From Pseudomonadota bacterium (GTDB lineage: Bacteria; Pseudomonadota; Gammaproteobacteria; Burkholderiales; Burkholderiaceae_C): DNA of 54,338 bases. Below the pieces are notes generated by a model. The model was not told the DNA's origin, ran no database searches, and saw only the letters and a program-made list of their open reading frames with translations. The translations under genes and the position numbers were made by a program. This document shows, one piece after another, positions 5,506 to 30,666 of the stretch (positions are counted from its first letter, which is position 1; each line of letters starts with the position of its first letter). Where the stretch lies: positions 1 to 54,338 of the forward strand of contig JAJZWA010000023.1 of the NCBI GenBank assembly GCA_021846965.1, read 5' to 3'.

Positions 5506-5518
5506 GGCACGTCGTGGG

Positions 5519-6340
<822 letters not shown>

Positions 6341-6344
6341 GGTC

Positions 6345-7316: not shown

Positions 7317-7373
7317 GGCGGTGGTCTCCGCACGGCGCCGGGGGGCGCCGGATGGTGGATCGGGTGGGCGTTG

Positions 7374-7399: not shown

Positions 7400-7406
7400 A
7401 GCCAGC

Positions 7407-9856: not shown

Positions 9857-9962
9857 GGTCGTCTCCAGGAAGTGGAATGTGTGGTCCGGCGATGGGCGCA
9901 GCATAGGGTCTGGTATTCGGCCGAAGTGATAGGATCCGGCCATTCTTGCTGCGTTTTTCGCC

Positions 9963-10943: not shown

Positions 10944-10945
10944 GC

Positions 10946-10963
10946 GGGCGGCCGCGGCCGCCC
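10946..10963 (+). terminator. 18-bp perfect palindrome after araC
   Basis: GGGCGGCCGCGGCCGCCC begins two bases after the araC stop. A stem of this strength probably ends or slows the araC transcript before the separately promoted galactoside operon. No T-run follows. Confidence 0.55.
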
Positions 10964-10998
10964 TCCGGCGTCGAATCCTGAATCAGGGATACCTCGGG

Positions 10999-11032
10999 TT
11001 GGGTCGCGCCCCGATTTATTTGTATGATGATT
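10999..11032 (+). promoter_or_regulatory. Predicted promoter and operator of the galactoside/glycerol operon
   Basis: TTGGGT (10999-11004), an 18-base spacer and TATGAT (11023-11028) give a plausible sigma-70 promoter 43 bases before the dehydratase ATG. The -10 lies inside TTGTATGATGATT (11020-11032). The identical 13 bases occur, inverted, over the -10 of the GntR regulator gene at 26151-26163. TTGTAT-type half sites are common among FadR-subfamily GntR regulators, so this is read as that regulator's operator. A repressor bound here would block the -10. Confidence 0.6.
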
Positions 11033-11070
11033 CCAAGTCATCCACACGAGCCCGCGCGCCAAGCTCCACC

Positions 11071-12801
11071 ATGTCGTCCTCCACCCCGAAAAAGCGACGT
11101 TCCCAAGCCTGGTTCGAAGGCCGCAGCAAGGACAATTTCATCCACCGCAGCTGGATGAAGAGCGAAGGCCTTCCCGACGACAGCTTCGACGGCCGCCCGG
11201 TGATCGGCATCTGCAACACCTGGAGCGATCTCACCCCCTGCAACCACCACTTCCGCGAGCTCGCCGAACGGGTACGCCACGGTGTGCTGCAGGCCGGCGG
11301 CCTGCCGCTGGAATTCCCGGTGAGTTCCCTGGGCGAAACCCTGATGCGCCCGACGGCCATGCTGTTTCGCAACCTGGCCAGCATGGACGTCGAGGAGGCG
11401 CTGCGCGCGCATCCCCTCGACGGCGTCGTGCTCCTGGCCGGCTGCGACAAGACCACCCCGGCCACGCTGATGGGCGCCGCCAGCGTGAACCTGCCCACCA
11501 TCGTGGTGTCCGGCGGCGCGATGCTCAACGGACGCTTCCGCGGCCAGGCCATCGGCTCCGGCACCCATGTCTGGAAATTCGCCGAGGCGGTCGCCGCCGG
11601 CACCATGAGCGAGCAGGAATTCATGCAGGCCGAGCGCTGCATGTCGCGATCCAGCGGCGTGTGCATGACCATGGGCACCGCCTCGACCATGGCCTGCCTG
11701 GTCGAGGCCCTGGGCATCGCCCTTCCCGACAATGCGGCGATTCCGGCGGTGGACGCGCGGCGCTTCGACCTCGCGCAGCGCGCCGGGCGTCGCATCGTGG
11801 AACTGGTGCTCGAGGATGTACGCCCCTCGCAGATCCTGACCCGCCAGGCCTTCGAGAACGCCATCCGCGTGTGCGGGGCCATCGGCGGCTCGACGAACGC
11901 GGTGATCCATCTGCTGGCCATCGCCGGGCGCGTGGGCGTGCCGCTGAGCCTGGACGACTGGGATCGCCTCGGGCGCGAGGTGCCGACCATCGTCGACCTC
12001 ATGCCCTCCGGGCGCTTCCTGATGGAAGACTTCTACTATGCCGGCGGCCTGCCCGTGGTGCTGCGCCGCCTGCTCGAGGCCGGACTGTTGCACGGCCAGG
12101 CGCCCAGCGTCGCCGGCGGCGTGCTGGCCGACCACGTGAGCCAGGCGCAATGCCACGACGAGCAGGTGATCCGCCCGCTGGCGCAGCCGCTGGTGGAACA
12201 GGGCGGCATCGCGGTGCTGCGGGGCAACCTGGCCCCCGACGGCGCCGTGCTCAAGCCCTCGGCCGCCACGCCGGACCTGCTGCGCCACACCGGTCGCGCC
12301 GTGGTGTTCGAGTCCATCGAGGACTACAAGGCGCGCATCGCCGACCCGGAGCTGGACGTCGACGCCGACTCGGTGCTGGTGCTGAAGAACTGCGGGCCCC
12401 GCGGCTATCCCGGCATGGCCGAGGTGGGCAATATGGGACTGCCGCCCAAGCTGCTGCGCCAGGGCGTCACCGACATGGTTCGCATCTCGGATGCACGCAT
12501 GAGCGGCACGGCCTTCGGCACCGTGGTCCTGCACACCGCGCCGGAGGCCGCGGCCGGCGGCCCGCTGGCACTGGTGCGCGACGGTGACCTGATCGAACTC
12601 GACGTGGAGGCGCGTCGGCTGCAGCTGCTGGTGGACGATGCCGAGTTGCAGCGCCGGCGCGCCGCATGGACCCCGCCGCCGCTGCCCGACTCGGGCTATG
12701 TGCGCCTGTATGTGCGCCATGTGCAGCAGGCCAACCTGGGAGCCGACCTGGACTTTCTCACCGGCTGCCGTGGCGACGCGGTGCCTCGCGAATCCCACTG
12801 A
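11071..12801 (+). CDS. IlvD/Edd family sugar-acid dehydratase (arabinonate/galactonate type)
   Basis: A 576-residue Fe-S dehydratase that removes water from a sugar acid to give the 2-keto-3-deoxy acid. Three cluster Cys are visible at C57 (TPCNHH), C125 (AGCDKTTP) and C198 (SSGVCMTMG). These match the spacing of C59/C127/C200 in Rhizobium L-arabinonate dehydratase, which also accepts D-fuconate and D-galactonate. The catalytic Ser is in ISDARMSGTAFG. The RSKDNFIHRSWMKSEG start is typical of the pentonate branch rather than true IlvD. It opens the operon with galactosidases, and its operator matches that of the dgoK/dgoR region. D-galactonate to 2-keto-3-deoxygalactonate is therefore the preferred role; the classical enolase-type DgoD is absent from the window. 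Confidence 0.85.
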   Translation: MSSSTPKKRRSQAWFEGRSKDNFIHRSWMKSEGLPDDSFDGRPVIGICNTWSDLTPCNHHFRELAERVRHGVLQAGGLPLEFPVSSLGETLMRPTAMLFRNLASMDVEEALRAHPLDGVVLLAGCDKTTPATLMGAASVNLPTIVVSGGAMLNGRFRGQAIGSGTHVWKFAEAVAAGTMSEQEFMQAERCMSRSSGVCMTMGTASTMACLVEALGIALPDNAAIPAVDARRFDLAQRAGRRIVELVLEDVRPSQILTRQAFENAIRVCGAIGGSTNAVIHLLAIAGRVGVPLSLDDWDRLGREVPTIVDLMPSGRFLMEDFYYAGGLPVVLRRLLEAGLLHGQAPSVAGGVLADHVSQAQCHDEQVIRPLAQPLVEQGGIAVLRGNLAPDGAVLKPSAATPDLLRHTGRAVVFESIEDYKARIADPELDVDADSVLVLKNCGPRGYPGMAEVGNMGLPPKLLRQGVTDMVRISDARMSGTAFGTVVLHTAPEAAAGGPLALVRDGDLIELDVEARRLQLLVDDAELQRRRAAWTPPPLPDSGYVRLYVRHVQQANLGADLDFLTGCRGDAVPRESH

Positions 12802-12824
12802 ATCCGCCTTCCCATCCCACCTGC

Positions 12825-12845
12825 CCGCGCGGCCACGCCGCGCGG
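12825..12845 (+). other. Stem-loop between dehydratase and importer ATPase genes
   Basis: CCGCGCGGC-CAC-GCCGCGCGG forms a perfect 9-bp stem with a 3-base loop, 17 bases before the ATPase start. It lies inside the putative operon and could be a processing or attenuation site. It has no T-run, so full termination is unlikely. Confidence 0.5.
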
Positions 12846-12862
12846 CGCCCTCCGGACCGATC

Positions 12863-14023
12863 ATGGCAAGTATCCGTCTCGAACAAGTCAGCAAGTCCTA
12901 CGGCAAGCTGCCGCCCGTGGTACGCGATGTCAGCCTGCACATCGGGGACAACGAATTCTGCGTGTTCGTCGGGCCCTCGGGCTGTGGCAAATCCACGCTG
13001 CTGCGCATGGTCGCGGGGCTCGAGTCCATCAGCGCCGGCGAGCTGCGCATCGGCGACAAGGTGATGAACGACGTCTCCCCGGCGCAGCGCGGCGTCGCGA
13101 TGGTGTTCCAGAGCTATGCCCTGTTCCCCCACATGAGCGTGTTCGAGAACATGGCCTTCGGGCTGCGCCTGGCCAAGTGCGCGCCCTCCGAGATCGACCG
13201 CCGCGTGCGCTCGGCCGCGCAGATCCTGCAGCTCGAGGCCCTGCTCGATCGCATGCCCAAGGCCCTTTCCGGCGGACAGCGCCAGCGCGTGGCCATCGGC
13301 CGCGCGATCGTGCGCGAGCCCGACGTCTTCCTGTTCGATGAACCACTTTCCAACCTCGATGCCGCGCTGCGCGTGCAGACACGCTTCGAGATCGCGCGGC
13401 TGCATCGCGATTTCGGGCGCGCCAGCGCCATCTACGTGACCCACGACCAGGTGGAGGCCATGACCCTGGCCGACCGCATCGTGCTGCTCAACACCGGCGC
13501 CGCGGTGGCCCGCGACGGCAGCGTCGCCCAGTGCGGGACTCCGCTGGAGCTGTACCACCAGCCGCGCAATCGCTTCGTCGCCGCCTTCATCGGCTCGCCG
13601 CGCATGAATTTCGCGCCCGCGCGCCTGTTGCAATGCGACGCCGAGCTCGCCACGCTGCAGCTGCGCAGCGGCGAGCGCGTGCAGGCGCGCGTCGATGCGC
13701 GCGCTCAGCCGGTGGGATCCGAGCTGACCCTGGGGGTCCGCCCGGAGGATCTCGAGGTGGGCGGCGGGGAACCCGCGCTGGGGCGTGACGTGCTGTGGCA
13801 GGAGCGCCTGGGCGAAGCCACCTACCTGTACCTGGACGCGGCCGGCTGCGGCGACCCCTGGGTGGCCAAGGCTCCGGGGAATTTCAGCGCCTCGCCCGGC
13901 CACCGCGTGGCCCTGCGCCTGCCCCCCGAGCGCGTGCACGTGTTCGACGGCGCCGAGGTGGCGCTGCCGCGCACCGTGCGGCCCGAGGGCCTGCCGACGA
14001 TGATGGCCGCGGCAGCGGCCTGA
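12863..14023 (+). CDS. Carbohydrate ABC transporter ATPase, MalK/UgpC-like
   Basis: A 386-residue ATPase for the CUT1 importer encoded downstream. Walker A is GPSGCGKST (37-45), the Q-loop glutamine lies in VFQSYALFPHMSV, the signature is LSGGQRQRVAIGR (from 135), Walker B FLFDEPLSNLDA, and the switch His is H194. Residues from about 235 form the OB-type regulatory domain (GSPRMNFAPARLL, LGVRPEDLEV) shared by MalK, UgpC and MsmX. The ATG at 12863 begins exactly at MASIRLEQVSKSYG. It is separated from its substrate-binding and permease genes by the GH42 gene, an order that ties the enzyme to the transported sugar. Confidence 0.93.
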   Translation: MASIRLEQVSKSYGKLPPVVRDVSLHIGDNEFCVFVGPSGCGKSTLLRMVAGLESISAGELRIGDKVMNDVSPAQRGVAMVFQSYALFPHMSVFENMAFGLRLAKCAPSEIDRRVRSAAQILQLEALLDRMPKALSGGQRQRVAIGRAIVREPDVFLFDEPLSNLDAALRVQTRFEIARLHRDFGRASAIYVTHDQVEAMTLADRIVLLNTGAAVARDGSVAQCGTPLELYHQPRNRFVAAFIGSPRMNFAPARLLQCDAELATLQLRSGERVQARVDARAQPVGSELTLGVRPEDLEVGGGEPALGRDVLWQERLGEATYLYLDAAGCGDPWVAKAPGNFSASPGHRVALRLPPERVHVFDGAEVALPRTVRPEGLPTMMAAAAA

Positions 14024-14047
14024 GCCAGGGACCCAGGGAGACTCTCC

Positions 14048-16072
14048 ATGATCGAACTCGGTGTCTGCTATTACCCGGAACAATGGCCCCGCGAACTGTG
14101 GGAGCGGGACGCGAGCCACATGCGCGAACTCGGGCTGCGCGTGGTGCGCATCGGCGAATTCGCCTGGAGCCGCATCGAGCCGCGCAGCGGCGAGCTGTGC
14201 TGGGACTGGCTGGACGATGCCCTCGACACCCTGCACCGCCACGGTCTGCGCGTAGTGCTGGGCACCCCCACCGCGACGCCCCCGAAGTGGCTGGTGGACG
14301 AGCATCCTTCCATCCTCGCGCTCGACGAGCACGGGCACGCGCGCGGCTTCGGCTCGCGGCGCCATTACTGCTTCTCCAGTCCCGTGTACCGCGAGCAGGC
14401 GGCGCGCATCGTCACGCTCATGGCCGAGCGCTATGGACGGCACGATGCCGTGTGCGCCTGGCAGACCGACAACGAATACGGTTGCCACTCCACGGTGCTG
14501 AGCTACTCGCAGGCCGCGCGCGAGCGCTTTCGCGCATGGCTGCAACGGCGCTACGGCACGGTGCAGGCACTCAACCAGGCCTGGGGCACGGTGTTCTGGA
14601 GCCAGGAGTACACGGATTTCGCGCAGATCGACCCTCCCGCGGCAACCGTGACCGAGGCCAACCCCTCGCACCGCCTCGACTGGAGGCGCTTCGCCTCCGA
14701 CGAGGTGGTCGAGTTCAACCGCATGCAGGTCGACATCCTGCGGCGGCACTCGCCCGGGCGCGACGTCCTGCACAATTTCATGGGCTTTTTCACCGAGTTC
14801 GACCACCACCGGCTGGCGCGCGACCTCGACGTGGCCACCTGGGATTCCTACCCCCTGGGGGCCACGCAGAATTTCTTCCTGGACCCTGACGAGAAGCGGC
14901 GCCACGCCTTCACCGGACACCCCGACATTCCGGCCTTCCACCACGATCTGTACCGCGGCATGTGCGGGGGACGCTGGTGGGTCATGGAACAGCAGCCGGG
15001 GCCGGTCAACTGGGCGCAATGGAACCCGGCGCCCCACCCCGGCATGGTCCGCGTATGGACCTGGCAGGCCCTGGCCCACGGCGCGGAGATCGTCAGCTAC
15101 TTCCGCTGGCGCCAGGCGCCCTATGCCCAGGAACAGATGCACGCGGGTCTGCAGCGGCCGGACGGCAGCGACGATCTCGGAGCCCTCGAAGCCGCGCAGG
15201 TCGCGCGCGAGCTCGATGGGCTGCGCGAGCCCCTGCTCGCGGCGCGCACGCGTCGGCGCGCCGAAGTAGCCCTGGTCTTCGACTACGACAGCCTGTGGAT
15301 GTGCGACATCCAGCCCCAGGGGCGCGACTACCTGGCGCTGGAGGCCTGCTTCCGCGCCTACAGCGCGGCGCGCCAGCTCGGCCTGGACGTGGACGTGCTG
15401 CCGGCGCATGCCGCGCTGGATGGCTACGCCCTGGTGCTGCTGCCCGCGCAACTGCGCGGCGACCCGACGCTGGCCACGGCGCTGCGGGGCAGCTCCGCGC
15501 AGATCCTGCTGGGCCCGCGCGCGGGCTCGAAGACCGAGGAGCTGCACATCCCCGCCAGCCTGGCACCGGGGGTGTTCGGCGAGCTCGCCGGGGTGCAGGT
15601 CCAGCGCGTGAGCTCGCTGCCGCCCGGCGTGGAGCTGCCGCTGCGCCTGGGCGAGCAGGGGCCGACCCTGCGGGCCAGCCGCTGGTGCGAACAGCTGGCG
15701 CTGCGAGGCGCCCGGGTGCAGGCCCGATTCGTGGAGGGGGCGGACGCGGGCCGCGCAGGCACGTCCGGCGAGGGCTCCGCCGCGCTGACCCGTCACGACA
15801 ACTGCTGGTACCTCGCGGCCTGGCTCGACCAGGCCGGCTGGGTGTCGCTGATCGAACACGTGGCGCAGGCCGCCGGGCTGGCCCCGCGGCGCCTGCCCGA
15901 AGGATTGCGCATCAGCCGCGTGGGCGAGCTGCTGCTGGCCCTGAATTTCTCCGATTCGCCGGTGTGCTGGGAGCCACCGCAAGGCGAGGCCACGCGCCTG
16001 CTGGGCGCGCTGGAGCTGCCCCCCAGGGGCGTATCCGCATGGAAGCTGCTCCCAGCGGCTTCCGCACATTGA
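14048..16072 (+). CDS. GH42 beta-galactosidase, cytoplasmic
   Basis: A 674-residue glycoside hydrolase that releases galactose from beta-galactosides with retention. The N-terminal TIM barrel starts at GVCYYPEQWPRELW. The acid/base Glu is E143 in AWQTDNEYGC and the nucleophile is E314 in WWVMEQQPGPVNW. The trimerisation domain (from about 390) and short C-terminal beta domain are both present, so the length is normal for the family. There is no signal peptide, so it acts on substrate already inside the cell. GGGAGAC lies before the ATG. It sits between the importer ATPase and binding-protein genes. With a GH36 alpha-galactosidase in the same operon, it fits a substrate carrying both linkages, such as digalactosylglycerol. 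Confidence 0.94.
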   Translation: MIELGVCYYPEQWPRELWERDASHMRELGLRVVRIGEFAWSRIEPRSGELCWDWLDDALDTLHRHGLRVVLGTPTATPPKWLVDEHPSILALDEHGHARGFGSRRHYCFSSPVYREQAARIVTLMAERYGRHDAVCAWQTDNEYGCHSTVLSYSQAARERFRAWLQRRYGTVQALNQAWGTVFWSQEYTDFAQIDPPAATVTEANPSHRLDWRRFASDEVVEFNRMQVDILRRHSPGRDVLHNFMGFFTEFDHHRLARDLDVATWDSYPLGATQNFFLDPDEKRRHAFTGHPDIPAFHHDLYRGMCGGRWWVMEQQPGPVNWAQWNPAPHPGMVRVWTWQALAHGAEIVSYFRWRQAPYAQEQMHAGLQRPDGSDDLGALEAAQVARELDGLREPLLAARTRRRAEVALVFDYDSLWMCDIQPQGRDYLALEACFRAYSAARQLGLDVDVLPAHAALDGYALVLLPAQLRGDPTLATALRGSSAQILLGPRAGSKTEELHIPASLAPGVFGELAGVQVQRVSSLPPGVELPLRLGEQGPTLRASRWCEQLALRGARVQARFVEGADAGRAGTSGEGSAALTRHDNCWYLAAWLDQAGWVSLIEHVAQAAGLAPRRLPEGLRISRVGELLLALNFSDSPVCWEPPQGEATRLLGALELPPRGVSAWKLLPAASAH

Positions 16073-16097
16073 TCAAGACTCGAGAGGAGACGACAAC

Positions 16098-17336
16098 ATG
16101 CCACGCCTTTCCCGCAAGCTGGTGCTCGGCGCCGCGCTTCTGGGCGCCGCCGCGGCCGCGGCGCACGCCGATGAGCTGGTGTTCAACACCGACTATTCCG
16201 ACCCCGGACCCAAGGCGGCCATCGCCGCCGCCGTGAAGGGATTCGAGGCCGCGTATCCCAACATCCACGTCAAGGTGAACACCTTCGACCACGAGGGCTA
16301 CAAGAGCGCCATCTTCAACTTCCTCTCCGCCGATCCGCCGGACCTGGCCACCTGGTACGCGGCCAACCGCATGGCTCCCTTCGTCAAGGACGGTCTGTTC
16401 ACCGACGTCACCCCGCTGTGGAACAAGGAGGGCTGGAACCAGTCCTTCGCATCCTCCGCCTCCTCCATGACCATCAACGGCCGCAAGTGGGGGCTGCCGC
16501 TGACCTATTACCAGTGGGGCATCTACTACCGCAAGGACCTGTTCCACAAGCTGGGCCTGCCGGCGCCGAAGACCTGGAAGGAACTGCTCAGCGACTGCGC
16601 CGCCCTGAAGGCGCACGGCATCACCCCCTTCGCCATCGGCACCAAGGCTCCGTGGCCCGCGGCCGGCTGGTTCGACTACCTGGACCTGCGGGTCAACGGC
16701 TACGCCTTCCACATGCAGCTCATGGCCGGGAAGGTGGCCTACACCGATCCGCGGGTGGAAAAGGTGTTCGACTACTGGGATCAGCTGACCAAGGCCGGCT
16801 ACTTCATCCCCAACAGCGCCTCCTACGCCTGGCAGGAAGCGGTGCCCCTGCTGGTCAAGGGCAAGGCGGGCATGTACCTGATGGGCAATTTCGCGGTGGA
16901 CGTGATGAAGTCCGCGGGCCTGAAGGAATCGCAGATCGGCTTCGTGCCCTTCCCGGTGATCAACCCGAAGGTCCCCGACGCCGAGGAGGCTCCGACCGAC
17001 ATCGTGTTCATCCCCTCGCACGCCAAGCACAAGGCCGATGCCGAGAAGTTCCTGGCCTACGTGGCGCGTCCGGACGTGCAGTCGAAGATCAACGCGATCC
17101 TCGGGCAACTGCCCACCAACAAGAACGCCAAGCTGCCGGACGATCCCTTCCTGAAGGCCGGGTTCAAGCTCTTGTCCAACGCCAAGGACCTGTCGCAGTT
17201 CTATGACCGCGACGCGCCCGCGCAGATGGCCAAGGCCGGCCTGGACGGCTTCCAGCATTACCTGATGAACCCCTCCGACCGCCAGGAGATCCTGAAGCAT
17301 CTCGACGAGGTCGAGAAGCAGGTCTACAGCCAGTAA
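16098..17336 (+). CDS. Periplasmic (oligo)saccharide-binding protein, CUT1 family
   Basis: A 412-residue family 1 binding protein. The signal peptide MPRLSRKLVLGAALLG... is cut after AAHA (residue 24); there is no lipobox Cys, so it is a soluble periplasmic protein. The mature chain shows VNTFDHEGYKSAIFNFLSADPPDLATWY, LTYYQWGIYYRKDLFHKLGL, and VRDVQSK-like ending blocks typical of sugar binders next to MalF/MalG-type permeases. Several Trp and Tyr suit stacking on sugar rings. A GAGGAG ribosome site precedes the ATG. By context it should bind a galactoside with a glycerol aglycone. A strong stem-loop follows the stop, probably giving higher expression than the permeases. Confidence 0.92.
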   Translation: MPRLSRKLVLGAALLGAAAAAAHADELVFNTDYSDPGPKAAIAAAVKGFEAAYPNIHVKVNTFDHEGYKSAIFNFLSADPPDLATWYAANRMAPFVKDGLFTDVTPLWNKEGWNQSFASSASSMTINGRKWGLPLTYYQWGIYYRKDLFHKLGLPAPKTWKELLSDCAALKAHGITPFAIGTKAPWPAAGWFDYLDLRVNGYAFHMQLMAGKVAYTDPRVEKVFDYWDQLTKAGYFIPNSASYAWQEAVPLLVKGKAGMYLMGNFAVDVMKSAGLKESQIGFVPFPVINPKVPDAEEAPTDIVFIPSHAKHKADAEKFLAYVARPDVQSKINAILGQLPTNKNAKLPDDPFLKAGFKLLSNAKDLSQFYDRDAPAQMAKAGLDGFQHYLMNPSDRQEILKHLDEVEKQVYSQ

Positions 17337-17343
17337 GACCGTC

Positions 17344-17401
17344 GGGCCCCCGGGCCCTGTCCGCCCCACCCCGCGCGCCGGCACGCAGCCGGCGCGCGGG
17401 G
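17344..17401 (+). terminator. Tandem stem-loops between binding protein and permease genes
   Basis: GGGCCCCCGGGCCC (17344-17357) is followed by CCCCGCGCGCCGG (17369-17381), a seven-base loop and CCGGCGCGCGGGG (17389-17401). The second is a perfect 13-bp stem. As in malE-malF regions, it likely allows partial read-through and protects the binding-protein message. The first permease begins 18 bases after the stem. Confidence 0.75.
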
Positions 17402-17419
17402 CAGCCGCAGATCTACGCC

Positions 17420-18337
17420 ATGTCCTCTCCCACGCACACGCCGCCCCGCCGATCCTGGTGGTCGCGACACCACATGTCCCTCGCGCCCTGGCTGTTCCTG
17501 GCTCCGGGACTGTTCCTGTTCACGGTCTACGTGCTCGGGCCGATCGTGGAGTCCATGGGCCTGAGCCTGTACAAGTGGGACGGACTGGGCGCGGCGCGCT
17601 GGGTGGGCTTCTCCAACTACCTGCGCCTGGCCTCGGATCCGGCCTTTCTCATCGCCTTGCGCAACAACCTGATCTGGCTGTTCGGCTACCTGCTCTCGGT
17701 ACCCATCGGCCTGGGGCTGGCCCTGCTGCTCAACCAGAGCGTGGCCGGCATGCGCCTGATGAAATCGGCCTTCTTCTTTCCCTTCGTCATTTCCCAGGTG
17801 GTCATCGGCCTGGTGTTCACGCTGTTCTACGACCCCACCTCGGGCCTGTTCGTGCATCTGCTGCACGCCCTCGGGCTGCCGCCGGTGGCGGTGCTCTCGG
17901 ACTCGCACCTGGTCACCTACGGCATCGTCGCGGCGGGGCTGTACCCGCAGATCGCCTACTGCATGATCCTGTACCTGACCGGGCTCAACGGCGTGCGCAC
18001 CGACCTCATCGAGGCGGCCCGGCTGGAAGGGGCCAAGGGCTGGTCCATGCTGTTCAAGGTCGTGCTGCCGCAATTGCGCCCGGCCACCTTCATCGCCGTG
18101 GTGGTCACGGTGATCGGCTCGCTGCGCAGCTTCGACATGATCTCCATCATGACCCAAGGTGGACCCTATGGAAGCTCGCGCACCCTGGCCTACTACATGT
18201 ATGAAGTCGCGCTGAGCGAGTACGGCTACCGCATGGGCTACGGCGCCGCCGTCGCCACGGTGCTGTTCTTCATCATGCTGGTGTTCATCGTCTTCGTGCT
18301 GCGGCGCGTGTATCTGCAGGAAAAGGAGAACGCCTGA
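17420..18337 (+). CDS. Carbohydrate ABC transporter permease 1, MalF/UgpA-like
   Basis: A 305-residue inner-membrane permease with six predicted helices. It has a short cytoplasmic start (MSSPTHTPPRRSWWSR) and the ATPase-coupling EAA motif EAARLEGAKGW in the fourth cytoplasmic loop. Hydrophobic segments begin at APWLFLAPGLFLFTVYVLGP. It pairs with the next permease to make the channel of the CUT1 importer. The stop TGA shares its final base with the following ATG, so the two are translationally coupled. The gene lies 83 bases after the binding-protein gene, across the stem-loops. Confidence 0.93.
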   Translation: MSSPTHTPPRRSWWSRHHMSLAPWLFLAPGLFLFTVYVLGPIVESMGLSLYKWDGLGAARWVGFSNYLRLASDPAFLIALRNNLIWLFGYLLSVPIGLGLALLLNQSVAGMRLMKSAFFFPFVISQVVIGLVFTLFYDPTSGLFVHLLHALGLPPVAVLSDSHLVTYGIVAAGLYPQIAYCMILYLTGLNGVRTDLIEAARLEGAKGWSMLFKVVLPQLRPATFIAVVVTVIGSLRSFDMISIMTQGGPYGSSRTLAYYMYEVALSEYGYRMGYGAAVATVLFFIMLVFIVFVLRRVYLQEKENA

Positions 18338-19188
18338 TGTTCCCCACCCCGATCGAACAGACCCGCGCGCCCACGCGCTGGGCCTACCGCGTGGGCATTC
18401 CCGTGCTGCTGCTGATCTGGCTGCTGCCCATCCTGGCCGTGGCGATGATGTCGGTGCGCACCCCCGCCGACATGAACTCCGGCAACTACTGGGGCCTGCC
18501 GGCCTCGTGGAGCGGCGTGAGCAACTACCTGCAGGTGTTCCGCAACACGCCCCTGCTGCGCTACATCCTCAACAGCTTCGAGGTCACGGTGCCCGCGGTG
18601 ATCGGCTCCATCGCGCTGGCCAGCCTGGCCGGCTACGCGCTGGGCGTCTACCGCTTTCGCGCCAATCTGGCGGTGTTCTTCCTGTTCGTCGGCGGCAACT
18701 TCGTGCCGGCGCAGATCCTCATGGTCCCGGTGCGCCAGCTCTCGCTGCACCTGGGGCTGTACAACAGCACGCTGGGGCTGACCCTGTTCCACACCGCCTT
18801 CCAGAGCGGGTTCTGCACCTTCTTCCTGCGCAACTTCATCCGCGACCTGCCGCGCGAACTCATCGAGGCGGCGCGCATCGAGGGCGCCGGCGAACTGCGC
18901 ATCTTCCTGCGCATCGTGCTGCCGCTGATCCGTCCCGCGATGGCCGCGCTGGCCGTGCTCATCTTCACCTTCGTCTGGAACGACTATTTCTGGGCCACCG
19001 TGCTCACCCAGGGCAGCCACGCCATGCCGGTCACCGGAGGCCTCATGTCCCTGAACGGCCAGTGGATCTCGCAATGGCAACTCGTGGCCGCCGGATCCAT
19101 CCTCGCCGCCCTGCCACCGGTGGTGATGTTCTTCGCCATGCAGCGCCACTTCATCGCCGGGCTCACCCTCGGCGCGACCAAGGGCTGA
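18337..19188 (+). CDS. Carbohydrate ABC transporter permease 2, MalG/UgpE-like
   Basis: A 283-residue inner-membrane permease, the second half of the channel. It has six predicted helices starting at VGIPVLLLIWLLPILAVAMMS. The EAA motif EAARIEGAGEL is followed by RIVLPLIRP, as in MalG. It begins on the last base of the preceding stop and ends four bases before the GH36 gene. With the ATPase at 12863 and the binding protein at 16098 it completes a four-component importer within one operon, interleaved with the hydrolases that should process its cargo. Confidence 0.93.
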   Translation: MFPTPIEQTRAPTRWAYRVGIPVLLLIWLLPILAVAMMSVRTPADMNSGNYWGLPASWSGVSNYLQVFRNTPLLRYILNSFEVTVPAVIGSIALASLAGYALGVYRFRANLAVFFLFVGGNFVPAQILMVPVRQLSLHLGLYNSTLGLTLFHTAFQSGFCTFFLRNFIRDLPRELIEAARIEGAGELRIFLRIVLPLIRPAMAALAVLIFTFVWNDYFWATVLTQGSHAMPVTGGLMSLNGQWISQWQLVAAGSILAALPPVVMFFAMQRHFIAGLTLGATKG

Positions 19189-19192
19189 ATCC

Positions 19193-21334
19193 ATGCAACC
19201 GACCCTGTTGCGACTCGAGGGCAATGCCTGCAGCGCCGTGCTGGAAGTCGCCGTCGGCGGCGCCGCCGTATGGCGCCACCTGGGCTCCCGCCTGGACGCG
19301 CTGGACCTGCTGGCGGCATGGCCGGGCTCGGAGCTGCTGTCCATGCCCCAGGGCGGCATGGACGCGCCCAGCCTTGCGCGCCTGGCACCCGGCCATGGCA
19401 ACGGCCTGGCGCAGGATGGCCTGCTGCGCGCGCACCGTGACGGGCTGGACGCCATCCACGACTGGAGCGTCGAGGCCTGGAGCCAGCCCAGCGCCGACAG
19501 CCTGAGCCTGCAGCTTGGCGACCTCAGCGCCGGGCTGGGGCTGCGCATCGAGCTCGGCCTCGATGCGGCGACCGACGTGTTGCGCGTGGAGGCCGAGCTG
19601 CACAATCGCGGCAGCACCGAACTGCAGGTGGATCGCCTGGCCGGGGCCAGCATCGCGCTGCCCGATGAGCTCACCGAAGTGAGCTACCCGCACGGTGAAT
19701 GGGCGTGGGAGTTCCAGTGGGAGCGCCGCACCGTGGGTACCGACGGCTGGTCGCGCGAGAACCGGCGCGGGCGCAGCTCGCACCAGGCGCCGCCAGGGCT
19801 GTTCGTGCTGGGCGCCCACAGCTGCGAGCACCAGGGACCGGCCATCGGCGTGCAACTGGCCTGGAGCGGCAACCACCGCTTCGCGCTGGAACGCCACGAC
19901 GACGGCCGGCTGCTGCTGCAGGCCGGCGAGTGGTTCGCCCCCGGCGAGGTGCGCCTGGCCCCCGGCGCACGCCTGCGCGTGCCCCCGCTGTACCTGGCGC
20001 TGGGCCAGGCGGGCATCGGCTCGGCCGCGCGGGGCCTGCACGCGCTGACCCGGCGCGAGGTGCTGCGCTGGCCGGGCGGCAAGCGGCGTGCGCGTCCGGT
20101 GCATCTGAACACCTGGGAGGCGCTGTATTTCCGCCACGACGAGGCCGAGCTGCGCGAGCTGGCCTCCCGCGCGGCCGAGCTCGGCGTGGAGCGCTTCGTG
20201 CTCGACGACGGGTGGTTCGAGGGGCGCAACGACGACCGCGCGGCCCTGGGCGACTGGTGGCCCGACCCGCGCAAGTATCCTCGAGGCTTGCGCGGGCTGG
20301 CCGAGCATGTACGCTCGCTGGGCATGGAATTCGGGCTGTGGGTCGAGCCCGAGATGGTCAACCCCGACAGCCGGCTGTATCGCGAGCATCCCGAATGGGC
20401 GCTCGGGGATGCCCGGCGCGAGCCGGTGTTCGGTCGCCACCAGCTGGTGCTGGACCTGGCACGGCCGGAGGTCTCGCAGTACCTGTTCGACAAACTCGAT
20501 ACGCTGCTGCGGGATACGCCGATCGGGTACCTGAAATGGGATATGAACCGCGATCTCGCGCAAGCGCTGGACGCGCATGGACGTCCGGGCATGCATGCCC
20601 AGGTGCTGGCGCTGTACGCGCTGCTCGAGCGCCTGCGCGAGGCGCACCCGCGGGTGGAGATCGAGAGCTGCGCCTCCGGCGGGGCGCGCGCCGACCTGGG
20701 CATCCTGCGCTACACGCAACGCCTGTGGACCAGCGACAACAACGACGCCAGCTCGCGCATCGCCATCCAGTCCGGGGCGCTGCGCCTGTTCCCGCCCGAG
20801 GTGCTGGGCAGCCATGTGGGCCCCGCACCCGCCCATGCCACGGGGCGGTCGCAGAGCATCGACCTGCGTTGCGCGGTGGCCTGTTTCGGGCATATGGGCG
20901 TGGAGGCCGACGTGCGGGCGATGAGCACCGACGAGCGCGACCGCCTGCGCGGCTGGATCGCCCTGTACAAGCAATGGCGCGAAACCATCCACGACGGGGA
21001 GATCGACCAGGGGCGCAGCCCCACCGGTGCCCGCTGGTGGCTGGCGTCCACGCCGGAGCGCCATTTCCTGTGCGTGTTCCAGCCCGAGGCGATGCCGGGC
21101 CCGCAATCGGCGGCGCTGCGCCTGCCGCGCCTGCGCGGCAGCGGGCGCTGGCGCGTGCACCTGCTCGGCCGCGCCGGGCAGCTGCGCCAGCGCGGCGAAC
21201 AGCAGAGCGCGTGGCTGCGCGCGCTGTCCGGCCCCGGCGTGCTGGCCGATGGGCACGAACTGGCCCAATGCGGCCTGCCCCTGCCCGCACTGCATCCCGA
21301 GGCGGCGCTGGTGTTCGGACTGGAGCGGGCATGA
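19193..21334 (+). CDS. GH36 alpha-galactosidase, cytoplasmic
   Basis: A 713-residue retaining alpha-galactosidase. An N-terminal beta-supersandwich (about 1-290) precedes a (beta/alpha)8 barrel with FVLDDGWFEGRNDD, PEMVNPDSRLY and the nucleophile D450 in YLKWDMNRD. The GH36 acid/base motif SDNND follows (WTSDNNDASSR, D515), with the substrate-binding SCASGGARAD before it. A C-terminal beta domain completes a normal full-length enzyme. There is no signal peptide, so it needs the importer to bring in substrate. It begins four bases after the permease stop and is followed 22 bases later by glpD. That join of alpha-galactosidase to glycerol genes is the main hint that the substrate is a galactosyl-glycerol rather than raffinose or melibiose. 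Confidence 0.95.
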   Translation: MQPTLLRLEGNACSAVLEVAVGGAAVWRHLGSRLDALDLLAAWPGSELLSMPQGGMDAPSLARLAPGHGNGLAQDGLLRAHRDGLDAIHDWSVEAWSQPSADSLSLQLGDLSAGLGLRIELGLDAATDVLRVEAELHNRGSTELQVDRLAGASIALPDELTEVSYPHGEWAWEFQWERRTVGTDGWSRENRRGRSSHQAPPGLFVLGAHSCEHQGPAIGVQLAWSGNHRFALERHDDGRLLLQAGEWFAPGEVRLAPGARLRVPPLYLALGQAGIGSAARGLHALTRREVLRWPGGKRRARPVHLNTWEALYFRHDEAELRELASRAAELGVERFVLDDGWFEGRNDDRAALGDWWPDPRKYPRGLRGLAEHVRSLGMEFGLWVEPEMVNPDSRLYREHPEWALGDARREPVFGRHQLVLDLARPEVSQYLFDKLDTLLRDTPIGYLKWDMNRDLAQALDAHGRPGMHAQVLALYALLERLREAHPRVEIESCASGGARADLGILRYTQRLWTSDNNDASSRIAIQSGALRLFPPEVLGSHVGPAPAHATGRSQSIDLRCAVACFGHMGVEADVRAMSTDERDRLRGWIALYKQWRETIHDGEIDQGRSPTGARWWLASTPERHFLCVFQPEAMPGPQSAALRLPRLRGSGRWRVHLLGRAGQLRQRGEQQSAWLRALSGPGVLADGHELAQCGLPLPALHPEAALVFGLERA

Positions 21335-21356
21335 GCCTGGCGAGGAGGAGTTCCCC

Positions 21357-22927
21357 ATGACTGCGGGCGAGGAGGCGGCGGGCGTGGGCGAGCCCTGGGA
21401 CGTGCTCGTCGTGGGCGGCGGGGTCAACGGCTGCGGCATCGCCCGCGACCTGGCCGGGCGCGGACTGCGCGTGATGCTGTGCGAACAGCACGACCTGGCC
21501 GCGCACACCTCGTCGGCCTCGACCAAGCTGATCCACGGCGGACTGCGGTACCTCGAATTCCACGAATTCTCCCTCGTCCGCAAGGCCCTGCAGGAACGCG
21601 AGGTGCTGCTCGGCAGCGCGCCGCACATCATGTGGCCGATGCGCTTCGTCGTACCCCATGACCCGCGCCTGCGCTCGGTGTGGACCCTGCGCGCCGGCCT
21701 GTGGCTGTACGACCACCTGGCACGCCGGCGCTGGCTGCCCGCCTCGCGCATGATGGACCTGCAACGCGAGGCCGCGGGCTGCTCCCTGCGCCCCCAGTGG
21801 CGACAGGGTTTCGCCTATTCCGACGGCTGGGTGGACGACGCGCGCCTGGTCGTGCTCAACGCCCTCGACGCCGCCGAGCGCGGCGCGCGCGTGCTCACCC
21901 GGACGCGGGTCGCTGCGCTGCGCCGCGAATCCGGGCTCTGGCACGCCGAGCTGATCGATGCCCGGGGCAGTCACGCGGTGCGCGCGCGCAGCCTGGTCAA
22001 CGCGGCGGGCCCCTGGGCCGGCCACCTGGCCCAGGATGCCGGAGTGGCCGCCGCCCGCCGCCAGCGCCTGGTCAAGGGCTCGCATATCGTCGTGCGTCGC
22101 TGGGCCCCCATGGACAAGGCCTGGCTGCTGCAGAACCCGGACCGGCGCATCGTGTTCGTGATCCCCTATGGCGAAGAGCACCTGCTCATCGGCACCACCG
22201 ACGTGGCCTACGACCAGGATCCGGGCGCGCCACGCATCAGCGAGCAGGAGACGGACTACCTGTGCGCCAGCGTGACCCGCTACTTCGACGTGCCCCTGGG
22301 GCGCGCGGACGTGGTGTGGAGCTACTCCGGCGTGCGCCCGCTGCTGGACGACGACAAGGGCGACCCTTCCGCGGTGACCCGCGACTACCTGCTCGAGCTG
22401 GACGAGGCCGGCGCCGCCCTGCTCAACGTCTGGGGCGGCAAGATCACCACCTATCGCAGGCTGGCCGAACAGGCAGCCGACCGCCTGGCCGCCTCGCTGG
22501 GCTGCAAGCGCGGCGCATGGACCGCCGGCTCCGTGCTTCCCGGCGGCGACCTGCATGCCGCACTGGGCCGCGCGCAGCCGGGTCCCGACGATCTGCGCGA
22601 TTTCGAACAATCCCTGGCCGCGCGCTACACGTGGATGCCCGAGGCCCTGCGCCGGCGCGTGGCGCGCGCCTACGGCACCCGCGTGCATCGCTGGCTGGGC
22701 GCTGCCCGCGGCACGGCCGATCTCGGGGCCGAGATCGCCCCCGGGGTGTTCGAGGCCGAACTGGAATACGCTGCGCACCAGGAATGGGCACACAGCGGCG
22801 AGGACTTCCTCTGGCGCCGCAGCAAATGCGGCCTGGCCCTGACGCCCGCGCAACGCCACGCCGTCGACGCGTGGTTCGAAGCTCGTGCCGGCGCGCGGGA
22901 AGCGGCCGTGCAACCGGGAGGCACTCC

Positions 22928-22931
<4 letters not shown>
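21357..22931 (+). CDS. glpD: Aerobic glycerol-3-phosphate dehydrogenase
   Basis: A 524-residue FAD enzyme of the inner-membrane surface. It oxidises sn-glycerol 3-phosphate to dihydroxyacetone phosphate and passes electrons to ubiquinone. The FAD fold is at VLVVGGGVNGCGIARDLAGRG (from 16), the second FAD contact at SSASTKLIHGGLRYLE (52-67), and LLIGTTDVAYD and WGGKITTYRRLAEQ are the catalytic-domain hallmarks. The C-terminal helical domain (DFEQSLAARYTWMPEALRRR onward) is present. The ATG at 21357 has AGGAGG upstream. The frame remains open far upstream through GH36, which is a shadow. Its stop overlaps the TTG start of glpK. Being in the same operon as both galactosidases, it should serve glycerol freed from the imported galactoside. 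Confidence 0.96.
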
Positions 22932-24436
<1,505 letters not shown>

Positions 24437-24450
24437 GCCGGCGCGCCGGC
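24437..24450. terminator. Palindrome between convergent glpK and dgoA
   Basis: GCCGGCGCGCCGGC starts on the base after the glpK stop and lies 13 bases from the dgoA stop on the other strand. It is a compact two-way terminator candidate. Confidence 0.55.
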
Positions 24451-24463
24451 CGGCTTCGGGCCC

Positions 24464-25120
24464 TCAGGCGCCGGATGGGGCGCTGGCTTCGTGCCAGGCG
24501 CGCAGCATGCGCGCGCCGCGCCGCCCCACTTCGGCGGCGTCCAGCCCTGGTCGGAACAGCTGGGAGCCGATCCCGAAGCCGGTCGCGCCGGCACGCAGCC
24601 ATTCGCCCATCTGCTGCTCGTCCACGCCGCCCACGGGCCACAGGGCCGTGCCGGCCGGCAGCACCGTGCACAGCGCCTTCAGGCCCCGGGGACCGATCTG
24701 TTCGGCCGGGAACAGCTTCAGCGCATGGGCACCCGCGCGCAATGCGCTGAAAGCCTCGCTGGGCGTGGCCACCCCCGGCGCACAGAACATGCCGCGGGCG
24801 GCCGCGTGCGCGATCAACTCGGGATCGCAATGCGGGGCCACCATCAGGCTTCCCCCCGCCGCGATGACCTCATCCACATGCTGGGTGCTGAGCATGGTGC
24901 CCCCACCGATCAGCCCGTCCGGCGGTGCCATGGACGCGAGGATCTCGATGCAGCGCAAGGCGTGAGGTCGGTTCAGCGGGACCTCGAGGCAGCGAAAACC
25001 GGTTTCGAACAAGGCCGCGCCCACCTCCGCCGCCTGCTCGGGCAGCAGGCCGCGCAGAATGGCCACCAGGGGCGGGGCGCCGGCGGGCAGCCCCGGGTGG
25101 CGTGCGATGGGAAGGTTCAT
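24464..25120 (-). CDS. dgoA: 2-dehydro-3-deoxy-6-phosphogalactonate aldolase
   Basis: A 218-residue class I aldolase of the KDPG/KDPGal family. It cleaves 2-keto-3-deoxy-6-phosphogalactonate to pyruvate and glyceraldehyde 3-phosphate in the cytoplasm. The active-site Glu is E46 in LEVPLNRP and the Schiff-base Lys is K135 in ALKLFPAEQIGP. LEVPLN and the PHCDPELI segment fit the galactonate-type DgoA rather than Eda. GTMLSTQHVDEVIAAGG and VGGVDEQQMGEWLRAGATGFGIGS are the phosphate-binding parts. It is 42 bases downstream of dgoK, presumably in the same transcript, and converges on glpK. The fused DgoD dehydratase domain known in some older annotations is absent. Confidence 0.93.
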   Translation of the reverse strand: MNLPIARHPGLPAGAPPLVAILRGLLPEQAAEVGAALFETGFRCLEVPLNRPHALRCIEILASMAPPDGLIGGGTMLSTQHVDEVIAAGGSLMVAPHCDPELIAHAAARGMFCAPGVATPSEAFSALRAGAHALKLFPAEQIGPRGLKALCTVLPAGTALWPVGGVDEQQMGEWLRAGATGFGIGSQLFRPGLDAAEVGRRGARMLRAWHEASAPSGA

Positions 25121-25162
25121 GGGTGCTCCTCTCCTGACAGCATGGACACGCGGCGCGCGGGC

Positions 25163-26113
25163 CTACAGGCCGCGCCCCAGTTCGCGCAGCGCGGCGACGT
25201 ACACGGCGTCCGGATCCAGGCAGCGCGCCTCGATTCCCAGCAGCGCGGCCGCGTCCCGGTAGCGCGCGGCCAGCGCGCTGGAGGCGATGATCGAGACCGA
25301 ACGCGCCGCCGGTCCGCCGCGCCCCAGCGCTTCCTGCAACTCGGCGCCGATCAGCACCCCGCTGAGGTACTCGCGGGCGTGCTCGGCCGGCATGGCGCCG
25401 GTCACCACCAGCGCGCGGCAACTGAACAGCGCTCCCGCCAGGCGCGCCGAGGCGGCGCGGCGCACCCCCTCGGCGAAGGCGCCGGGAGATTCCTCGCTGC
25501 GGCTCATCAGTGCGCCCAGGGTTCCGTGCTGGCTCAGGCAGGCGAACAACTCGCCGGTCATGTAGGTGGCGAACCACCGGATCAGCCCGCCGCCCACCTG
25601 CGCCCACTTGGAATGGGTGCCGGGCAGCACCATCATGCGATTGCGCGCATCCGGCTCCAGCAGGGTGGCGCCCAGCATCTGCACCTCCTCGCCGCGCATC
25701 ACGTCGATGCCCTGCTCCGGGCCCGCCTGCTCGGGCAGCACCGCATAGCCGGGAACCAGATGGCAGCGCGGCGGGGCATCGGCGCCGTGCAGCGGGACCA
25801 GGTGCCTGCCCAGATCGCGCAGGGGCTGGTCGATGCCCAGGTAGTCCACCGCTTGCCAGCCCTGCGTGCTGCCCACCATTCCGGACAGGACCACCGGCAG
25901 CTCGCCGGCGCGCGCCCCCAGGCGCTCGAGCACCCCGGCGCAGACCTGGCCGAATCGCCCGCGCGCGCGCAGCACGCCGTCGTCGCCATCGCAGCGCGCG
26001 ATCACGCTCCCGTCGGGCGCAACGCGGTAAGCTCGCAGATGCGTGGTCCCCCAGTCGATGCCGATGATCTCGGTGGCGCCCGCGGGAAGCTCGCGATCGG
26101 GGCTTGGCGGCAT
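25163..26113 (-). CDS. dgoK: 2-dehydro-3-deoxygalactonokinase
   Basis: A 316-residue sugar-acid kinase that phosphorylates 2-keto-3-deoxygalactonate at C6, the step before DgoA. The ASKHA-type phosphate loop is GIDWGTTHLRAYRV (about 18-31). LSGMVGSTQGW, RGEEVQMLGA and VLPGTHSKWAQV are family marks of DgoK. Translation starts at ATG 26113. A TTG start 39 bases upstream would place coding sequence over the operator and is disfavoured. It is divergent from the GntR regulator, with a 73-base shared control region. Together with dgoA and the IlvD-type dehydratase it forms a De Ley-Doudoroff galactonate route. Confidence 0.93.
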   Translation of the reverse strand: MPPSPDRELPAGATEIIGIDWGTTHLRAYRVAPDGSVIARCDGDDGVLRARGRFGQVCAGVLERLGARAGELPVVLSGMVGSTQGWQAVDYLGIDQPLRDLGRHLVPLHGADAPPRCHLVPGYAVLPEQAGPEQGIDVMRGEEVQMLGATLLEPDARNRMMVLPGTHSKWAQVGGGLIRWFATYMTGELFACLSQHGTLGALMSRSEESPGAFAEGVRRAASARLAGALFSCRALVVTGAMPAEHAREYLSGVLIGAELQEALGRGGPAARSVSIIASSALAARYRDAAALLGIEARCLDPDAVYVAALRELGRGL

Positions 26114-26136
26114 GCTGTGTCCTGGGCTGGTTCGGG

Positions 26137-26164
26137 GTGACAATGCTTTCAATCATCATACAAT
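26137..26164 (+). promoter_or_regulatory. Predicted dgoR promoter with overlapping operator
   Basis: GTGACA (26137-26142), a 16-base spacer and TACAAT (26159-26164) make a good sigma-70 promoter for the GntR gene. AATCATCATACAA (26151-26163) covers the -10. Its complement is exactly the 13-mer over the -10 of the galactoside operon (11020-11032). Lying between dgoK and its regulator, the site suits autoregulation and control of dgoK-dgoA. Confidence 0.65.
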
Positions 26165-26186
26165 ACTCGACAACGCTTACGACGCC

Positions 26187-26906
26187 ATGACCAAGACCCC
26201 CTCCGTCGCGCGCACCGTCCAGGGCGGATCCGCGGGGCCCGCGTTGCACCGGCAGGTCGTGCAGCGCCTGGGCGAGCGCATCGTCGGCGGCGGCTACCCC
26301 AGCGGCAGCACCCTGCCCAGCGAGGAAGTGCTGGGGCAGGAGCTGGGGGTCAGCCGCACCGCGTTGCGCGAGGCGGTCAAGGTGCTGGCCGCCAAGGGGC
26401 TGCTCAAGGCGCGCCCGCGCATCGGCACCCGGGTACAACCGGTCTCGGCCTGGAACATGCTCGACCCGGAGGTCCTGGCCTGGCGCTGCGCCGCCGACCC
26501 TGGAGGGGACATGCTGCGCCAGCTGGGGGAGATCCGGGAGATCATCGAGCCCAACGCCTGCATGCTCGCGGCGCGCAACCGCAAGCTCGACGATGTCCGC
26601 GCCATCGAGCGCGCATGCGAGGCCATGCGCGACTCGCAGACCATCGAGCAGTGGGTCGAGGCCGATCTGCAGTTCCACGTCGCCGTGCTCGCGGCCACGC
26701 ACAATGAATTGCTGATTCCCCTGTCCTCGGTGATCGGCTCGGCACTGGGCATGCTGCTGGGCGTGTCGGCTCGGCGCGCGGACACCTTCAAGCAGGCCCT
26801 GGACGACCATCTGCGGATATTCCAGGCGATCCACGAGCAGGACCAGCGCTCGGCCTTCATGCGCATGCGCCGGCTGCTGGCCGACACGCGCCGGCGCCTG
26901 GAATGA
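26187..26906 (+). CDS. dgoR: GntR/FadR-subfamily regulator, DgoR-like
   Basis: A 239-residue transcription factor. The winged helix-turn-helix spans about 20-85 (LPSEEVLGQELGVSRTALREAVKVLAAKGLL, RPRIGTRV). A C-terminal all-helical FCD ligand domain follows (about 100-235), with acidic and His residues (DLQFHVAVLAATHN, HLRIFQAIHEQD) that in this fold bind a metal and a sugar acid. ATG 26187 is preferred; the upstream open frame runs through the control region. It is divergent from dgoK-dgoA and should repress them until galactonate or its derivative binds. The matching site at 11020 extends its regulon to the galactosidase/glycerol operon. Its final codons overlap the DUF4010 gene. Confidence 0.88.
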   Translation: MTKTPSVARTVQGGSAGPALHRQVVQRLGERIVGGGYPSGSTLPSEEVLGQELGVSRTALREAVKVLAAKGLLKARPRIGTRVQPVSAWNMLDPEVLAWRCAADPGGDMLRQLGEIREIIEPNACMLAARNRKLDDVRAIERACEAMRDSQTIEQWVEADLQFHVAVLAATHNELLIPLSSVIGSALGMLLGVSARRADTFKQALDDHLRIFQAIHEQDQRSAFMRMRRLLADTRRRLE

Positions 26907-30529: not shown

Positions 30530-30666
30530 GGCACCATCCCCCCGAACTCTCCGACCCGCGCGATGCCGAGCGCGGGTTCATCCACCAAGACTAGGCGAGG
30601 AAATGCCCCATGACCGAGGATTCGAGCCTGGCTAAGCGACGCCTAACGACCTTTTGAATGCAGGGC

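Follow-up and report, generated by a model that had tools for sequence, protein, structure and literature searches.

A galactoside operon that runs into glycerol genes

We analyzed a 54,338-nucleotide stretch of DNA, referred to here as the window (contig JAJZWA010000023.1 of assembly GCA_021846965.1), from a draft genome of the Thiomonas group (3.66 Mb, 94% complete). Specifically, we studied a tight plus-strand run of genes at 11071-24436 that encodes a sugar-acid dehydratase, a CUT1 importer, a GH42 beta-galactosidase, a GH36 alpha-galactosidase, and the glycerol enzymes GlpD and GlpK, with dgoA and dgoK on the opposite strand. An earlier sequence-only reading of this DNA had described the operon in these terms, and a gene-by-gene check with Pfam and NCBIfam placed every gene as described. 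An AraC-type regulator that precedes the dehydratase was absent from its list; this gene is kept in five out of five intact relatives (L010, L012-L015). The genes of the locus are as follows:

9963-10943, plus strand: AraC-type regulator, first gene of the run (PF12833 2.3e-25, AraC_binding 3.1e-05)
11071-12801, plus strand: IlvD/EDD-family sugar-acid dehydratase (PF00920 2.1e-114, PF24877; NF004784 935 bits, cut-off 539)
12863-14023, plus strand: CUT1 importer ATPase of the MalK/UgpC type, the start codon being the chosen one (ABC_tran, OB_MalK, TOBE_2)
14048-16072, plus strand: GH42 beta-galactosidase (PF02449 3e-151; best solved relatives 6y2k 3e-228 and 1kwg 1e-222)
16098-17336, plus strand: CUT1 solute-binding protein, AcbH-like (SBP_bac_1 2.8e-44)
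17420-18337, plus strand: CUT1 permease (PF00528 5.8e-15)
18337-19188, plus strand: CUT1 permease (PF00528 3e-14)
19193-21334, plus strand: GH36 alpha-galactosidase (PF02065 3.1e-115)
21357-22931, plus strand: glpD, glycerol-3-phosphate dehydrogenase (NF008899 708 bits, cut-off 360)
22928-24436, plus strand: glpK, glycerol kinase (TIGR01311 669.9 bits, cut-off 590.35)
24464-25120, minus strand: dgoA, KDPGal aldolase (NF006600 255 bits, cut-off 207)
25163-26152, minus strand: dgoK, 2-keto-3-deoxy-galactonokinase, whose true start may be further in (PF05035 8.5e-76)
26043-26906, plus strand: GntR/FCD regulator, whose true start is probably further in (PF07729, PF00392)

The CUT1 carbohydrate ABC importer is complete, with an SBP_bac_1 protein, two BPD_transp_1 permeases, and a MalK-type ATPase with OB/TOBE domains, and the De Ley-Doudoroff part of the locus brings together the sugar-acid dehydratase, the KDGal kinase, and the KDPGal aldolase. 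Judged by its neighbors, the dehydratase is probably a galactonate dehydratase, since its homologue in Rhodoferax OV413 (L018) sits with an SDR dehydrogenase, a lactonase, and dgoK. The GntR/FCD family also adjoins dgoK in this Rhodoferax locus and in the sphingomonad locus L233 described below. GlpK and GlpD both score above their curated cut-offs and are encoded on the same strand as GH36. We also confirmed that glpD follows GH36 by 22 bases and overlaps glpK, as the sequence-only reading had it: the gap contains GAGGAGGAG ahead of the ATG, and the glpD stop and the TTG start of glpK overlap in TTGA. A scan of 8400-26400 scored zero terminator-like sites on the plus strand between 19127 and 24436, and its sole sigma-70-like match lies at 26137-26164. 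Both hydrolases had been said to lack signal peptides, and their N-termini indeed carry no signal-like sequence, whereas the binding protein has one (judged by eye and hydropathy); GH42 and GH36 are probably cytoplasmic. In GH36, the KWDMN and SD positions are invariant across an 11-row alignment.

Conservation and glycerol gene copy number in the Thiomonas group

GH36 was found in nine of the 60 relatives searched, the window's own genome counted. Five other genomes, whose contigs are intact here (L010, L012-L015), preserve the gene order from dehydratase through to glpK at 83-100% protein identity, and the arrangement is therefore not due to chance; from araC to the GntR gene, the order is kept in the same five at 80-100%. 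In G003, the run is divided between two contigs. A variant in G001 consists of dehydratase, ATPase, GH42, binding protein, permeases, GH36, an SDR dehydrogenase, an SMP-30 lactonase, and glpD, with dgoA-dgoK on the opposite strand and glpK located elsewhere, and in G023 lactonase and glpD stand with dgoA, dgoK, and gntR at the start of a contig. A more distant GH36 (48%) in G016 has a different setting without glpD. A glpD tree unites the operon-linked copies with those of G004, G012, and G015 in a single supported clade, suggesting that the gene either entered or left the operon within the Thiomonas group.

The window's own genome gave one match for glpK (E<=1e-60) and one for glpD (E<=1e-40), which rules out that the operon holds extra, dedicated copies. 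The sequence-only reading had counted it against itself if these were the only glycerol genes of the genome and were expressed independently of the galactosidases; on the first half of this, copy number, they are the only ones detected. Because the copies are single, their linkage to GH36 could be a rearrangement; the linkage in Thiomonas alone thus proves little, and the question turns on recurrence in other lineages. We also considered the lack of a MIP-family glycerol facilitator, which was not found in the five genomes of the window's clade covered, namely the window's own (G000) and G003, G006, G008, and G018 (G026 and G027 were outside this search). This was rejected as telling evidence because the lack is common in the genus: the facilitator is also absent from G004, G012, and G015, and is present in 7 out of 25 genus members searched. 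No GH4 was found in the window's own genome. A DNA-level plasmid search with 14048-24436 of the window gave 19 partially matching records, none at 80% coverage.

Glycerol genes beside GH36 in other lineages

The sequence-only reading had proposed a genome-neighborhood search, and in ours glycerol genes beside GH36 recur in separate lineages, while most other GH36 loci are without them. The largest set comes from Alphaproteobacteria that we call Erythrobacteraceae-type on the basis of records L050 and L044. In L050 (uncultured Erythrobacter), GH36 is followed by glpD with an ATGA overlap before the contig ends downstream; the same metagenome-assembled genome (MAG; G060) has a full-length copy on another contig, in the order glpD-galT-galK, that is 81% identical to the L050 fragment. 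Within the family of this MAG, the GH36 type occurs in 78 of 298 genomes (79 matches, E<=1e-120), and we opened 60 of the 79 matches, up to 20 kb each and best scores first, with the MAG's own match kept apart. In 18 of these 60 loci, glpD lies no more than 4 kb downstream of GH36 and on the same strand, which with L050 makes 19 linked loci. The estimated gap between the two genes is below zero in 15 out of 18 and amounts to 24, 187, and 835 bases in L240, L233, and L239, lengths that are rough because they are extrapolated from the N-terminus of the Thiomonas glpD. Downstream, galT and galK follow in 16 of the 19 linked loci (in L239 with a TonB-receptor gene between), so that both halves of a galactosyl-glycerol would be served. 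The other three comprise one De Ley-Doudoroff set and two loci that show neither (L246 and L050, the latter cut by its contig end). Specifically, the De Ley-Doudoroff locus L233 has dgoA, glpK, and an SSF symporter on one side and GH36, glpD, GH42, a dehydratase, an SDR, dgoK, GntR, and a lactonase on the other; by its predicted genes, it has the enzymes of the Thiomonas set, with an SDR and a lactonase added, and another importer (SSF). It is also the only one of the 19 linked loci with GH42 within 9 kb. The absence of GH42 from the other 18, in a search that among beta-galactosidase families covered GH42 alone and for which L050 is cut downstream, points to alpha-galactosylglycerols. When we searched 30 genomes (19 linked, 11 not) for glpD (E<=1e-60), we observed one match in 29 and two in G261; the linked copy is the only match in 17 of the 19 linked genomes.

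Other loci of this family vary the theme. L221 has GH36-galT-galK without glpD, as if glpD had been inserted or lost. In L224 and L226, glpK rather than glpD is linked, beyond an SSF symporter divergent from GH36, which is a second way for a glycerol gene to join such a locus. An FGGY match in L223 (27%) was not counted as a glycerol link.

In addition, we opened 13 plasmid matches, chosen by hand and not a random sample, and found glycerol genes in two. The plasmid of Pseudoalteromonas nigrifaciens KMM 661 carries a GH2 beta-galactosidase, an epimerase, a TonB receptor, an SSF symporter, GH36, GntR, an SDR, and dgoK, and next to these, on the other strand, glpD, glpK, an alpha/beta hydrolase, a Gfo/Idh enzyme, galK, galT, and galE. 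On the plasmid of Catenovulum adriaticum, whose source field reads algae, glpK, a DeoR regulator, an insertion element, glpD, and tpiA are followed by a TonB receptor, GH36, GH42, and an SSF symporter. Its tpiA lies behind glpD on the same strand (L321:19523-21806) and would carry dihydroxyacetone phosphate (DHAP) on to glyceraldehyde 3-phosphate.

To place these loci on trees of GH36, we labeled them by linkage. In a 130-row tree (INDEPENDENCE; the window plus 134 GH36 loci minus five with <300 bases downstream), the glpD-linked label (26 rows) required 5 changes, 4 of them forced by well-supported branches, compared to a shuffled mean of 24.1. In a 140-row tree, in which 12 plasmid rows were added, the long-branch unlinked L060 and L295 were dropped, and the two glpK-linked rows were counted, the glycerol-linked label (30 rows) required 6 changes, at least 5 of them forced (shuffled mean 27.6). 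Both are quick trees with SH-aLRT support only, and the changes lump gains and losses. The Thiomonas, sphingomonad, and Alteromonadales groups are separate on these trees, and the glycerol-linked groups differ in gene order, partner genes, and importers. Moreover, the Thiomonas and sphingomonad glpD sequences showed no common grouping (the Alteromonadales glpD was outside that tree). We therefore rejected the idea of a single GH36-glpD cassette passed between these two groups, as their glpD sequences group apart.

A proposed route for galactosyl-glycerols

A galactosidase, a galactose arm, and a glycerol arm thus occur together in separate lineages. Since this combination, with GlpK/GlpD as its glycerol arm, would suit the use of galactose plus glycerol, we infer that the imported molecule is a galactosyl-glycerol, and with it co-expression of the genes and flux through the pathway. 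We propose that the operon probably catabolises small galactosides with a glycerol aglycone, whether alpha (floridoside/isofloridoside), beta, or digalactosylglycerol. The CUT1 importer would take up the intact glycoside, which GH36 and/or GH42 would split in the cytoplasm. Galactose would be converted to galactonate by enzymes encoded elsewhere and dehydrated by the IlvD/EDD enzyme, after which DgoK would phosphorylate the product and DgoA would cleave it to pyruvate and glyceraldehyde 3-phosphate. Glycerol would be phosphorylated by GlpK and oxidized by GlpD to DHAP. The reactions of GH36, GH42, DgoK, DgoA, GlpK, and GlpD are established. Extending this beyond Thiomonas, we lean toward the view that the loci represent a convergently built galactosylglycerol module (an alpha-galactosidase, alone or joined by a beta-galactosidase; a Leloir or De Ley-Doudoroff galactose route; and glpD, alone or with glpK) that came together independently in the Thiomonas group, the Erythrobacteraceae-type bacteria, and Alteromonadales, with different importers.

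The binding protein fits a galactosyl ligand, by analogy to AcbH of Actinoplanes SE50/110 (3oo6), without naming that ligand. AcbH is its best solved relative by sequence (1.5e-59) and also the best match of its predicted fold (Foldseek 4.5e-32, TM 0.82/0.86; mean pLDDT 89.1), at 30% identity. AcbH reportedly binds galactose with high affinity (PMC3364876). In Streptomyces loci L073-L079 and L081-L087, members of the binding-protein family (32-34% identity) stand with permeases, GH36, and GntR, often with a dgoA-related aldolase.

Evidence against the route and alternative explanations

Several observations weigh against the proposed route. The sole detected glpD and glpK copies of the genome must serve any glycerol use, and six genus members have adjacent glpD-glpK but no GH36 (G004, G011, G012, G015, G022, and G024). 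Most GH36 loci lack the link: glpD is missing from 42 of the 60 opened sphingomonad loci, from all five other Burkholderiales GH36 loci (399 genomes) and all 16 further alphaproteobacterial ones (385 genomes) in flanks of up to 1.5 kb, and from 71 of 79 GH36 loci in named records in the flanks covered, some of which are short. Among these 79, only six Thiomonas-clade loci and L050 have a convincing glpD; a glpD-like match in L030 was not counted, being 28% identical, ~8 kb away, and on the opposite strand. Neither glpD nor glpK was found in 11 of the 13 opened plasmid loci, where the DNA was checked too. Moreover, 29 of 109 unlinked GH36 loci carry galT and/or galK too, so this arm does not set the glpD-linked loci apart.

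The galactose arm itself is not closed in the window's own genome. The sequence-only reading had noted that galactose dehydrogenase and lactonase are missing here and must lie elsewhere; they are indeed outside the window, but no SDR-type galactose dehydrogenase homologue was found in the assembly (E<=1e-30; Gfo/Idh types were outside this genome-wide search). The one SMP-30 family match lies on another contig (G000:C68, E 3.1e-45) and resembles the lactonase of G001 only weakly (28%). The aldo-keto reductase at 2675-3736 (minus strand) was rejected as a candidate galactose dehydrogenase, since NCBIfam identifies it as L-glyceraldehyde 3-phosphate reductase-like. In two genomes of the Thiomonas group, L327 (G003:C230) and L328 (G026:C24) represent another sugar-acid locus, with a dehydratase ~69% identical to that of the window, SDR dehydrogenase(s), and a lactonase; judging by these genes, a locus of this type is a possible source of the missing first galactose steps.

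The core operon also occurs without its glycerol genes. Rhodoferax OV413 (L018) has dgoK, gntR, dehydratase, ATPase, GH42, binding protein, permeases, GH36, SDR, and lactonase, collinear with the window from dehydratase through ATPase, GH42, binding protein, and permeases to GH36 (57-78% identity, 64% for the binding protein, which is common to operons without glycerol genes), and no glpD or glpK in the stretch covered, although both galactosidases are present. A CUT1-GH36-dgo set without glp genes is found in Ruegeria TM1040 (L318), Paracoccus marcusii (L317), and Falsirhodobacter algicola (source field Grateloupia, a red alga), and Mesorhizobium terrae has the importer and both galactosidases but no glp genes. 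By gene content, then, the core operon minus glpDK is ordinary. The Rhodoferax, Ruegeria, and Paracoccus operons share with that of Thiomonas the AcbH-like binding protein, two permeases, a MalK-type ATPase, GH36 (alone or accompanied by a beta-galactosidase), a dehydratase of the galactonate or IlvD/EDD type, dgoK, and, where in reach, dgoA. What sets them apart is a dehydrogenase of the SDR or Gfo/Idh type together with an SMP-30 lactonase within the locus, and the absence of glpD/glpK; Thiomonas shows the opposite pattern, with glpD-glpK present and both SDR and lactonase absent from the operon. The rhizobial lac/agp loci are presumably further galactoside CUT1 operons with De Ley-Doudoroff enzymes.

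These comparisons, together with the single glp copies and the glpDK pairs away from GH36 in the genus, favor an ordinary alpha/beta-galactoside operon (for melibiose, raffinose, lactose, or galacto-oligosaccharides) next to which glpDK came to lie by rearrangement, with no pathway link; the locus of the plant-associated Sphingomonas R1, which pairs GH36 with a GH68 gene and has no glp genes, agrees with such a use. We nevertheless regard this as unlikely, because the pairing recurs in separate lineages with other gene orders and partners and because the tight GH36-glpD spacing is kept across the Thiomonas clade. It is still less probable that free glycerol and galactosides are merely available together (e.g. 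from algae) and that their catabolism is co-regulated with no import of a galactosyl-glycerol. Such co-availability fits all genes seen, but leaves unexplained why glpD stands beside an alpha-galactosidase rather than other sugar genes, and no MIP glycerol facilitator was found in the window's own genome, common as this lack is in the genus.

Within the galactosyl-glycerol interpretation, two special cases can be distinguished. The substrate may be an alpha-galactosylglycerol (floridoside/isofloridoside), with GH42 inherited from an older galactoside operon and not needed, which we consider quite possible though short of likely. Here, glpD directly follows GH36 both in the Thiomonas clade and in the majority of the linked sphingomonad loci; of these 19 linked loci, 18 show no GH42. 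One GH36 enzyme is reported to synthesize isofloridoside from galactose and glycerol through reverse hydrolysis (PMC8509150), and floridoside is reported from the acidophilic Galdieria (PMC5020028). Conversely, GH42 is kept at 88-95% identity in the five intact Thiomonas-clade operons, the alga-derived F. algicola has its CUT1-GH36-dgo set without glp genes, and our literature search, with most subscription papers outside it, turned up no Thiomonas-floridoside link and no paper on Thiomonas with galactose and glycerol or with Galdieria. That Thiomonas meets galactosylglycerols is our supposition.

The other special case is the one that the sequence-only reading favored, namely digalactosylglycerol plus monogalactosylglycerol from chloroplast galactolipids, hence GH36, GH42, glpK, and glpD together. 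We consider this rather doubtful. The import of galactosyl-glycerols and the use of both halves gained comparative support from separate lineages, but the specific substrate need not be digalactosylglycerol, given the 18 linked loci without GH42 and a Rhodoferax operon with both galactosidases and no glp genes; over 110 long loci, GH42 and glpD were not associated (p=0.81). In its favor, alpha- and beta-galactosidase recur with glpD and glpK in L233, Pseudoalteromonas (with GH2), and Catenovulum. Furthermore, an alpha/beta hydrolase with PETase/PAF-AH-like Pfam matches, which could be an esterase that deacylates galactolipids, occurs in 10 of 110 loci of >=15 kb, including those of L233 and Pseudoalteromonas, and goes with GH42 (7/10 versus 29/100, p=0.013, an exploratory value that ignores the kinship of loci). 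Four copies that we read (L233:2255-3553, L322:19945-21267, L323:3109-4515, and L324:5567-6841) have a secretion-signal-like or lipoprotein-like N-terminus; further loci are L027, L031, L035, L037, L052, L072, and L263. However, the window has no homologue of this hydrolase.

Relation to known systems

The sequence-only reading knew of no described operon of this composition. Our literature search likewise found none, nor any described bacterial gene set for galactosylglycerol use. Galactolipids are described as main components of chloroplast membranes (PMC8333865) and floridoside as a main storage carbohydrate of red algae (PMC8703398). Egel (1979, 1988; cited in PMC8333865) proposed that the E. 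coli lac operon serves galactosylglycerols derived from galactolipids. This proposal resembles ours in the class of substrate and differs in that the Thiomonas run includes a glycerol arm. To our knowledge, E. coli lac has no alpha-galactosidase and no glycerol genes. We regard the Thiomonas operon as a variant of the known galactoside operon, distinguished by its glycerol arm.

If our hypothesis is true, the convergent module would supply the genes with which bacteria use algal floridoside and the head groups of galactolipids, and the recurrent pairing would give Egel's old idea named, assayable genes. GH36 coupled to glpD could then be a marker for finding bacteria that may live on galactosylglycerols. 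Overall, the pairing of GH36 with glycerol genes suggests that bacteria of distant lineages, including one isolated from algae, eat galactose-glycerol compounds like those of algae.

Neighboring genes

On the minus strand at 2675-8495, the window holds a second sugar locus with an RbsB/RbsC-like monosaccharide importer, a FucU/RbsD mutarotase, a ROK regulator, and a YghZ-like aldo-keto reductase. The G001 homologues of its permease, ATPase, mutarotase, ROK regulator, and reductase run co-directionally straight into the dehydratase operon, and this second locus may therefore be functionally tied to the operon. Directly behind gntR lies a DUF4010 gene (26903-28189, plus strand) that is kept in the five intact relatives; a homologue lies ~7 kb from the stand-alone glpDK of G004 (L151). 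Further downstream, at 28631-32490 on the minus strand, are two adjoining serine-carboxypeptidase-like (Peptidase_S10) genes.

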